From NCBI GenBank assembly GCA_021323635.1, contig JAJPKQ010000012.1, forward strand, positions 1-64,000: a DNA stretch of 64,000 bases, written 5' to 3'. This document shows positions 49,875 to 64,000 of the stretch, in pieces. The notes below the pieces were generated by a model that worked only from the letters and a program-made list of their open reading frames with translations, searched no databases and was not told the origin of the DNA. This stretch comes from a bacterium (GTDB lineage Bacteria > Actinomycetota > Thermoleophilia > Solirubrobacterales > Solirubrobacteraceae). Each line of letters begins with the position of its first letter. Position 1 is the first letter of the stretch. The translations under genes were made by a program, and so were the position numbers.

Positions 49875-49896
49875 GCCCCGCCAGGAACATAGCTGG

Positions 49897-49983
49897 ACAC
49901 ATCCAGAGGGGTGGAGGGACTGGCCCGACGAAGCCCCGGCAACCACCGCAGTGCGGGAAGGTGCCAATTCCAGAGAGATGTGT
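49897..49983 (+). ncRNA. SAM-I (S-box) riboswitch
   Basis: The core shows the S-box consensus: AGAGGGGTGGAGGGACTGGC, then CGACGAAGCCCCGGCAACC, and GGTGCCAATTCC at about 49960-49971. P1 is formed by ACACATC (49897-49903) with GATGTGT (49977-49983). Downstream, TGTGGCG (49981-49987) can pair with CGCCACA (50001-50007), which competes with P1. CTTCGCC (49998-50004) can pair with GGCGAAG (50018-50024) close to the ribosome-binding site. No run of T follows, so control of translation seems likelier than termination. It precedes a threonine-synthase-like gene, an unusual target. Confidence 0.93.
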
Positions 49984-50038
49984 GGCGGGCCTCAGATCTT
50001 CGCCACACGGTACAACCGGCGAAGAGCAAAGGAACCCG

Positions 50039-60724: not shown

Positions 60725-60850
60725 GCCGCGATGGGGCACAGCGCACTTGCCACGACAGCCCGCTACCTACACGCGCGCCCGGCCGTCGAGCAGGCGCAAG
60801 TGTTCAAACGGGCGTTTGAGGTGGCGTCGGCGGGCCCGCAGGAGGTTGCC
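60725..60850 (+). pseudogene. Remnant of a tyrosine recombinase (integrase) C-terminus
   Basis: AAMGHSALATTARYLHARPAVE and AQVFKRAFEVAS match the last catalytic block of phage-type integrases (GHxxxxTTxxYxH, with the nucleophile Tyr). The Arg and His-x-x-Arg blocks that should precede it are absent. The frame continues to 61075 without family-like sequence. The remnant supports past integration of a mobile element beside the tRNA at 62375-62469. Confidence 0.6.
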
Positions 60851-60992
60851 TCGACCGCGGGTGGGCGCCGGGCCGCCGTGAGCGCAGGCGGGCGAGCTGG
60901 GACTGGCGCATGGAGCGGGGGAGGGCACTGCGTGCTCGCGGCTGCCCGGGAGTCGAGGTTGTCGCAGCCGGTGCGCGCCGTAGGTTGCGCGC

Positions 60993-61514
60993 ATGAATGG
61001 CCAGGGCATCCAGTTCGTATTCGATCGCCTCGGCGAGATCGTCGACGAGCTCTATTGCTACGGCTTCGCGCTTGATCCTCGGCCCGGCGCCTCGTTCGTA
61101 AACCCCACGTACATAGCCGATCCTGCAACGGGGCTGGTGGAGATTGCGGCGGGCCTCGAGGACAGCCCGCTCGACGTGCGCGTCGTGCTGGCCGAGCATT
61201 GGCGACGCGGCAGCGGTGGAGCGCATCCGCGGCACGGCCTGAGCGTGGCTGCCTACACCTACTGGGTCGGTTGCGCGAACCCCGCCATCGACCTGCACTA
61301 CGACCTCGACCCCCTGCGCCATCCCGAGATGCCGTGCCATTGGCATCCACCGGCGATGGCGGTGGTGCGCCGGCCCTGCGGCACGGTGGAGCCTGCGCGC
61401 GCGTTGCGCGCCGCCCTCCAGCTTGCGGCCGACATCGAGCGGCTGCAGGCTCAAGGCCTTGACGCTACAGTCGATATAGTGGATAGTCTGGATTTGGCTG
61501 ATTACGTGCCTTAG
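60993..61514 (+). CDS. Hypothetical 173-aa protein, first gene of an accessory pair
   Basis: A 173-aa soluble protein of no recognised family. It has an N-terminal helix (FVFDRLGEIVDELYCYGFAL), a beta-rich middle (LVEIAAGLEDSPLDVRVVLAEHW, SVAAYTYWVGC) and a His/Asp-rich segment DLHYDLDPLRHPEMPCHWHP that could bind metal or form an RNase-type active site. A C-terminal helix follows. Its layout vaguely recalls DUF6516/TumE-type toxins (YD and HxH). A TAGGTT hexamer is 6 nt upstream. The HTH gene starts 21 bp downstream in the same orientation. Confidence 0.68.
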   Translation: MNGQGIQFVFDRLGEIVDELYCYGFALDPRPGASFVNPTYIADPATGLVEIAAGLEDSPLDVRVVLAEHWRRGSGGAHPRHGLSVAAYTYWVGCANPAIDLHYDLDPLRHPEMPCHWHPPAMAVVRRPCGTVEPARALRAALQLAADIERLQAQGLDATVDIVDSLDLADYVP

Positions 61515-61535
61515 CGTGGTAGCCTGGGTGTGGGC

Positions 61536-61928
61536 ATGAGCGATCTCGACAGCCGATACCTCACCGTTCCCCAGGTGGCTCGGGAGCTGCAGATGGACGT
61601 CTCAGCGGTCTACAAGATGTGCAAGGCGCACGAGCTGCCGTCTGTCCGCTTCGGCAAGTCGGTGCGCATTCCACGCCTGGCCTACGAGCGCTATCTGGAG
61701 CAGCTGGAAGGTGGTGGGCCCGAGCCACCGAATCCGAACGTGACCGACGCCCAGGGCGGCCGCGAGAGCTTTCGCGAGACTACGGGGCGCGACCCGGAGG
61801 TATGGATCGAGGAGTGGCGGTCCGGCAGCATCCCCGATACGCCGGAGAACACCCGCATGGCCATACGTGCCTTGGCATTGCGGGACGTCGCGCAGGCACG
61901 CGACCGGGAAGCAGCTACGGCGCGCTGA
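61536..61928 (+). CDS. Excisionase/AlpA-like HTH protein
   Basis: A 130-aa protein with an N-terminal MerR-like helix-turn-helix of the excisionase type (YLTVPQVARELQMDVSAVYK, SVRFGKSVRIPRLAYERYL, about 7-55). The C-terminal half is acidic and Trp/Arg-containing (DPEVWIEEWRSGSIPD, NTRMAIRALALRDV). Such HTH proteins occur as recombination directionality factors or as antitoxins. The 173-aa gene upstream and the integrase scar favour either. In-frame GTGs at 61530 are possible starts. Confidence 0.78.
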   Translation: MSDLDSRYLTVPQVARELQMDVSAVYKMCKAHELPSVRFGKSVRIPRLAYERYLEQLEGGGPEPPNPNVTDAQGGRESFRETTGRDPEVWIEEWRSGSIPDTPENTRMAIRALALRDVAQARDREAATAR

Positions 61929-62374
61929 ATTCGCGCGCCGGGCACTAGTCGGGACAGACGTCAGCCTGCTGGCAGACACGCGGGCCTGCAGGTCTGCCCG
62001 CAAGCGTGCCAGCAGCCCACCGCACACTAGATGACCAGTGCCACGGCGTCACGCCGCGTAGCAGGCCAACGAGCGGCTGGGACGGCCAGGACGATGATTG
62101 AGCGCAACTGCCGCGGCAAGCGCAGCGAAGCTGGCACAGAGACGGACGCTACTCTACGGGCTGCCCCTTGCCACGCTGAACGCGCGGGATTTCACGGCAA
62201 TCGCAGGCCTACGCCTGATCACCGCCTGAGACTGACTGCTGATACGGCCGGTCTGTGCTGGTGCAAGCGCTGCCAGCGGGCGCCGGCCCCGGGCAAAGGC
62301 GGCGAAGCTCCTGCGAAGCCCTCTGATCCCCACGAGCCCCGCCATCCCGCCTTGCGGCAGGACATTCGCGTGAT
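61929..62374. other. 446-bp non-coding stretch of the accessory island
   Basis: No convincing gene is seen. It includes a long hairpin at 61966-62015 (CTGCTGGCA with TGCCAGCAG and an inner GCGGGC/GCCCGC), possibly ending the HTH transcript. The remainder shows no coding bias and likely is a decayed end of the inserted element, stopping at the 3' end of the minus-strand tRNA. Confidence 0.5.
61966..62015. repeat. Long inverted repeat/hairpin after the HTH gene
   Basis: CTGCTGGCA (61966-61974) pairs with TGCCAGCAG (62007-62015); an inner 6-bp helix GCGGGC/GCCCGC stacks within it. There is no T-run after it, so a classical intrinsic terminator is not assured; it may also be an attachment-site arm or RNA structure. 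Confidence 0.45.
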
Positions 62375-62469
62375 GCGCCCGGCGGGAATCGAACCCGCGG
62401 CCTGCGGTTTGAAAGACCGCCGCTCTTCTCCACCCCGAAGGTTGGATTTGACCACTGAGCTACGGGCGC
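62375..62469 (-). tRNA. tRNA with TTC anticodon (Glu-type) and 24-nt D-loop insertion
   Basis: Minus strand: acceptor GCGCCCG (62469-62463) pairs with CGGGCGC (near 62376), D stem GCTC/GAGC, anticodon stem GCGGT/ACCGC with loop CTTTCAA (anticodon TTC), T arm GCGGG-TTCGATT-CCCGC, and discriminator A. All four stems are perfect, but the D-loop is 31 nt instead of about 7-8. The 24-nt insertion sits between the GGT and the A21 position and folds as a hairpin with a TTCG loop (TCCAACC/GGGTGGA, one mismatch). The body lacks Glu identity features such as a missing position 47, so charging with Glu is uncertain. No CCA is encoded. Confidence 0.75.

Positions 62470-62538: not shown

Positions 62539-64000
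<1,462 letters not shown>

Follow-up and report, generated by a model that had tools for sequence, protein, structure and literature searches.

A candidate tRNA-Glu(UUC) with an additional hairpin in its D-loop, present in three genera of Solirubrobacterales and on viral contigs

Introduction

tRNA-Sec, allo-tRNAs and armless mitochondrial tRNAs are functional transfer RNAs (tRNAs) with altered arms, and the enlarged D-arm of tRNA-Sec serves recognition, according to the part of PMC7609411 considered here. The non-canonical tRNAs described in that part have longer D-stems or missing arms. In contrast, the gene analysed here, a candidate tRNA-Glu(UUC) gene located in the first 64,000 nucleotides (nt) of contig JAJPKQ010000012.1 from a Solirubrobacteraceae genome (assembly GCA_021323635.1; this whole stretch is called the window), contains an extra hairpin inside the D-loop. 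We found no description of a bacterial tRNA with a D-loop hairpin in the open-access literature.

Canonical bacterial tRNA-Glu(UUC) shares with the hairpin tRNA the anticodon UUC, A37, the G1-C72 pair and the place in the decoding set. The hairpin tRNA differs from it by the added D-loop hairpin and by lacking U11-A24, U13-G22:A46 and the gap at position 47, and genomes carrying the hairpin form yielded no canonical one. The tRNA-Lys(UUU) of relatives from the same order is similar in its body, whereas it has the anticodon UUU and no hairpin. Phage anti-defence tRNAs (PMC10264068, PMC11555353, PMC12409363) are comparable in that phage tRNA arrays carry this isoacceptor. The parts of these papers considered here describe resistance by base changes and no hairpin. 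What is shown for the hairpin tRNA on the phage side is its presence on viral contigs. Archaeal D-loop introns likewise place extra sequence in the D-loop region of the gene, but for the hairpin tRNA we find no splicing endonuclease in eight genomes of the three genera and no bulge-helix-bulge, and the hairpin is under pairing constraint.

Our analysis makes it quite probable that the gene encodes a functional, mature five-helix tRNA-Glu(UUC) that retains the hairpin, belongs to a gene pool shared with phages and has displaced the canonical isoacceptor.

Results

Fold of the tRNA gene

The gene matches the Rfam tRNA family RF00005 over its whole length with 68.0 bits against a threshold of 29, which places it among the tRNAs, and covariance model R1 scores it 115.6 bits (Table 1). 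Numbered from 62469 downward, it is composed of an acceptor stem of 7 base pairs (bp; 1-7/89-95), a 4-bp D-stem (10-13/45-48, GCTC/GAGC) enclosing the D-loop (14-44), an anticodon arm (50-66) with a 5-bp stem and the loop CTTTCAA, a variable loop of 5 nt, and a T-arm (72-88) with a 5-bp stem. All four stems are fully paired. In the RF00005 alignment the D-loop insert occupies 25 positions instead of 1, corresponding to 24 extra bases. The hairpin, a 7-bp stem with one A.G mismatch capped by a TTCG loop, lies between G19 and A21, a variable position, following AGTGGTCAAA and preceding GAAGAGC. The equivalents of G18, G19 and A21 are kept, and the sequence suggests that the ordinary elbow contacts between G18/G19 and the T-loop can form despite the hairpin. 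The gene is not a type II tRNA, as its variable loop is short and RNAalifold places the extra helix in the D-loop.

This structure agrees with an earlier note, made from the letters of the window, which had described a tRNA with anticodon TTC, four intact helices without signs of decay, and 24 extra D-loop bases folding into a TTCG-capped hairpin. The gene it located is real, although its start was one base away from 62374 and its range for the insert deviates by a few bases from that in Table 1. ARAGORN detects the gene but calls it tRNA-??? with a wrong anticodon; for hairpin tRNAs in general it returns tRNA-???, a wrong isotype, or misses the gene. Because tRNA finders misread the gene, genomes with the hairpin tRNA appear to be without tRNA-Glu(UUC).

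Table 1 Features of the tRNA gene and its surroundings in the window
Feature	Position	Strand	Basis and remarks
tRNA-Glu(UUC) gene with D-loop hairpin	62374..62469	-	96 nt with discriminator A73, the gene does not encode CCA; RF00005, covariance model R1, conservation in relatives and phages
Anticodon TTC	62411..62413	-	Sequence and RF00005 alignment; decodes GAA and, by wobble, GAG
D-loop enlarged to 31 nt (closest tRNA-Lys from a relative in the order: 8 nt)	62426..62456	-	Sequence, alignment
Inserted hairpin, tRNA positions 24-41, TCCAACC-TTCG-GGGTGGA	62429..62446	-	Covariation
D-stem 3' strand GAGC (5' strand GCTC at 62457-62460)	62422..62425	-	Near-invariant across 25 sequences
Anticodon loop to 3' end, segment duplicated beside the gene in several relatives	62374..62415	-	Read as integration (att) core
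uvrA, conserved 5'-side neighbour in a subclade of the genus	62539..64000	+	Open reading frame (ORF); shared in 5 other loci; name from sequence
HTH_17 helix-turn-helix (excisionase-like) protein, 3' side of the tRNA	61530..61928	+	Pfam PF12728, 1.4e-10
ORF starting with a tyrosine recombinase C-terminus-like stretch (GHSALATTARYLHA)	60731..61075	+	By eye; no Pfam match

Covariation in the hairpin

The covariation set contains 25 distinct 96-nt sequences, 18 bacterial and 7 viral. Standard pairs fill 99.0% of the paired cells over the whole structure, and neither the loss of pairing nor the loss of conservation expected of a pseudogene is observed. Within the hairpin 97.1% of the cells are paired, while none of its seven pairs is invariant and six show two-sided, compensatory changes; pair 27/38, for example, occurs as A-U, U-A, U-G, C-G, G-U and G-C. 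The sole departure from pairing in the hairpin is a recurrent A.G mismatch, found in 5 of the 25 sequences. Doubly changed cells over the whole structure number 96, against 24.5 +/- 3.7 after shuffling, and none of 500 shuffles reaches the observed values. Moreover, pairing drops to 36-49% in slid controls, and RNAalifold recovers the same five helices unprompted. As the pairing is kept while the letters change, and the size stays almost constant at 18 nt, the hairpin is, to judge from these alignments, selected for pairing and not for letters.

These data bear on two alternative explanations. In the first, which the earlier note had offered as an unknown excision, the hairpin would be an intron or spacer removed from the precursor, leaving an ordinary mature tRNA. 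Archaeal tRNAs do have D-loop introns, one of which is mentioned in the part of PMC3695527 considered here. However, no archaeal-type splicing endonuclease (PF01974) was detected in eight genomes of the three genera, with archaeal controls positive, and the gene shows no bulge-helix-bulge. In addition, the stem length is near-constant, the compensatory changes lie in the stem and not at the supposed junctions, the insert is no group I/II element, and no other Rfam family matches at the gene. Owing to the missing endonuclease and the pairing constraint in the stem, excision is very unlikely. In the second, the hairpin would be a tolerated ornament without function, folded merely to spare the tRNA core. 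The freedom of the letters, with pairing alone kept, fits this, as does the general tolerance of the G19-A21 site for length variation. On the other hand, no shortened or lost hairpin was seen in the three genera or the phage Glu forms, nearly all of which have 18 nt, in a search limited to genes with a long D-loop or matching the hairpin model. We regard the ornament as doubtful.

Decoding of GAA

The window's own genome (97.5% complete) encodes 45 tRNAs, which cover every other expected isoacceptor and include an ordinary tRNA-Glu(CUC). The earlier note had suggested looking for a normal tRNA-Glu(TTC) elsewhere in the genome, and no second tRNA with the anticodon UUC was found there. Near-complete genomes of all three genera (for example G205, 100% complete) are similar, with UUC tRNA-like matches confined to the hairpin gene plus a small number of copies, partial or repeated, some of the repeated ones having been inspected at full length. 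Canonical tRNA-Glu(UUC) (GCCCCCATGGTGTA...) is present in other genera of the family, so the search is able to see one. A CUC anticodon cannot normally read GAA, and no tRNA other than the hairpin form was found that could do so.

In a comparison of 49 genes with relatives, conserved-context GAA sites align with Glu in 17 of 30 cases, similar to GAG (196 of 311), and do not align with Lys. A reassignment of this codon to Lys, a candidate prompted by the Lys-like body, is thus rejected. Since GAA aligns with Glu, the genetic code appears standard and the hairpin tRNA should carry Glu.

Identity elements and glutamyl-tRNA synthetase

The earlier note had stated that the body lacks the identity marks of tRNA-Glu. 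This holds for the D-arm and variable loop, where the hairpin tRNA has C11-G24, C13-G22 and a residue 47, but not for the anticodon loop, where the strong determinants U34, U35, C36 and A37 are present together with the weak G1-C72. The determinants of E. coli tRNA-Glu include U11-A24, U13-G22:A46 and the absence of residue 47 (PMC9976931). Read by eye, the tRNA-Glu(CUC) of the window's genome has the classical D-arm determinants. Without its hairpin, the body of the UUC gene is closest to the tRNA-Lys(UUU) of order relatives (64/73 to L096 in G056 and 62/73 to L102 in G054), from which the anticodon differs by a single base.

Glutamyl-tRNA synthetase (GluRS) is single and ordinary in the hairpin genomes, and a dedicated second GluRS can therefore be rejected. 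The short second GluRS homologue of several other genera is absent from hairpin genomes and also from some non-hairpin genomes. Loss of tRNA-dependent haem synthesis was likewise rejected, as hemA is present in 23 of 23 genomes tried, with and without the hairpin tRNA alike.

Occurrence in bacteria

Within Solirubrobacterales (class Thermoleophilia), 35 of 232 genomes carry the hairpin tRNA. They come from two families, with one genus in the first and two in the second. In the window's genus the gene, and with it the insertion that the earlier note proposed to compare among relatives, is kept in 21 of 24 genomes, the three others being only 58-74% complete. The second family contributes 14 genomes across its two genera. 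No further genus with the hairpin tRNA appeared among 399 genomes sampled from the class, and the window's own genome is the sole match in a phylum sample of 396 genomes. A pattern scan of GTDB contigs returned 38 stretches with 19 distinct intact full-length sequences, nearly all titled Solirubrobacterales, Solirubrobacteraceae, Thermoleophilia or Actinobacteria; three are labelled as other groups, which probably reflects errors of binning or naming. One genome, G209, contains two copies (C7:25916 and C32:10263) with differing hairpins.

Occurrence in phages

Nine IMG/VR contigs contain the hairpin Glu(UUC) form, and wider patterns add two further hairpin Glu forms, L262 and L263. In all, at least ten IMG/VR contigs have this tRNA. 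PHROGs matches on several of the contigs, including tail proteins, ribonucleotide reductase and RNA ligase, support their viral nature. In the arrays of L262 and L253, with 28 and 29 recognised tRNAs, Glu(CUC) is ordinary and the UUC slot is filled by the hairpin form. Among cultivated phage and plasmid records the full hairpin form was not found, the matches being partial ones to ordinary tRNAs or unannotated stretches. In the tRNA tree, phage and bacterial sequences are intermixed with low support; because of this mixing, exchange between phages and bacteria is likely, as far as such sequences indicate.

Several features of the viral contigs stand apart. An RNA ligase gene (phrog_548; L253:9981-10706, minus strand), possibly for tRNA repair, lies beside the 29-tRNA array holding the hairpin tRNA-Glu(UUC), and a QueC gene for queuosine biosynthesis (PF06508; L255:5098-5967, plus strand) is found on another viral contig with a hairpin tRNA. 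L267 (IMG/VR 3300050821_008961) carries a tRNA-Lys(UUU)-like gene whose flanks are those of the Glu family and whose D-loop insert is longer. The viral tRNA-Asn(GUU)-like gene at L265:2152-2262 (IMG/VR 3300000156_000105) has a different D-loop hairpin of about 9 bp (GAAGTCACC...GGTGGCTTC), which does not seem to be related to the Glu family. Several phage tRNAs may thus have hairpins in the D-loop.

Proposed origin and role of the hairpin

In the explanation that we favour, a functional tRNA-Glu(UUC) with a retained hairpin, the hairpin would stay in the mature D-loop between G19 and A21 and leave the contacts of G18/G19 with the T-loop free. GluRS would charge the tRNA mainly through the determinants of the anticodon loop. 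A gene resembling tRNA-Lys(UUU), changed once in its anticodon, may have given rise to the body, and the hairpin tRNA gene would have moved between phages and these bacteria, displacing canonical tRNA-Glu(UUC). The earlier note had listed a variant tRNA with a new structure among its options, and the results support it. The hairpin would be kept for its shape and not for its letters, most likely as a shield against tRNA-targeting nucleases, or else as an aid to recognition without the usual Glu D-arm.

Several observations weigh against this explanation. All the bacterial genomes are metagenome-assembled and the phages are uncultivated. The 96-nt tree leaves the direction of transfer unsettled. 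No GluRS residues specific to the hairpin lineages emerged from the comparison, so the proposed recognition route gains no support from the enzyme. In addition, related viral tRNAs with the same flanks, body and hairpin have Arg(CCU), Ala(UGC) or Lys(UUU) anticodons, showing that the hairpin is not bound to Glu.

The last two points also count against the idea that the hairpin offsets the missing U11-A24, U13-G22:A46 and gap at 47, either as an aminoacylation identity element or, with the tRNA derived from one for Lys, as a LysRS antideterminant. The absence of these classical determinants (as defined in PMC9976931), the Lys-like body and the conserved hairpin size are consistent with such a role, which we nevertheless consider rather unlikely. 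By analogy with phage systems, the hairpin could instead confer resistance to tRNA-targeting nucleases of host or phage, the gene being an anti-defence tRNA later fixed in hosts. Its presence in phage tRNA arrays, one with a nearby RNA ligase, points this way; evasion of such nucleases is described for phage tRNAs (PMC10264068, PMC11555353), and AriB of PARIS reads a D-loop base (PMC12409363). However, we identified no candidate nuclease here, and the known evasion proceeds by point changes and not by hairpins, so that this role is possible but doubtful. More broadly, and tentatively, a class of five-helix tRNAs may circulate between phages and soil actinobacteria, with the hairpin acting as an immunity shield or as a rewiring of recognition, and may have replaced an essential canonical isoacceptor in three genera.

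If the gene functions as a retained-hairpin tRNA-Glu(UUC), it extends the range of natural tRNA shapes by an arm, implies that a hairpin at the elbow is acceptable to GluRS, RNase P, EF-Tu and the ribosome, and provides a case of a phage-shared tRNA replacing an essential host isoacceptor. The hairpin site would also be a natural insertion point for tagging tRNAs.

Gene neighbourhood and integration

The 5' side of the gene has clade-conserved neighbours, uvrA in the window's subclade, with two different contexts found elsewhere, and the 3' side is variable. Copies of the tRNA 3' half, beginning at the anticodon arm or loop and running to the 3' end, lie 1-6 kilobases from the gene in several relatives (42 nt in L110 and L112, 47 nt in L109), with further matches in G012, G014, G018 and G021. 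Integration into a tRNA gene usually leaves such a displaced copy of the 3' segment. Integrative elements therefore target the 3' half of this gene, in line with the hint of nearby integration in the earlier note. On the 3' side in the window, the HTH_17 protein probably belongs to an integrated element, and the ORF with the recombinase-like start is a probable, though uncertain, integrase remnant. The window has no second copy of the duplicated segment, and Pfam searches of the ORFs between the att copies in relatives yielded an IS66 transposase and no integrase.

This targeting is the one point in favour of a pseudogene, an assembly artefact or an integration scar, the last of which the earlier note had raised as a silenced copy left by integration. 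Against these stand the same structure in dozens of independent assemblies, which also means that the insertion is not unique to the window, and the paired changes. The gene is conserved and keeps its pairing, no other UUC tRNA was found, and such an origin is scarcely credible. Integration uses the hairpin tRNA gene, and nothing indicates that it gave rise to the hairpin. Elsewhere in the window, an S-adenosylmethionine (SAM) riboswitch (RF00162, 77.6 bits) is located at 49896-49984 on the plus strand.
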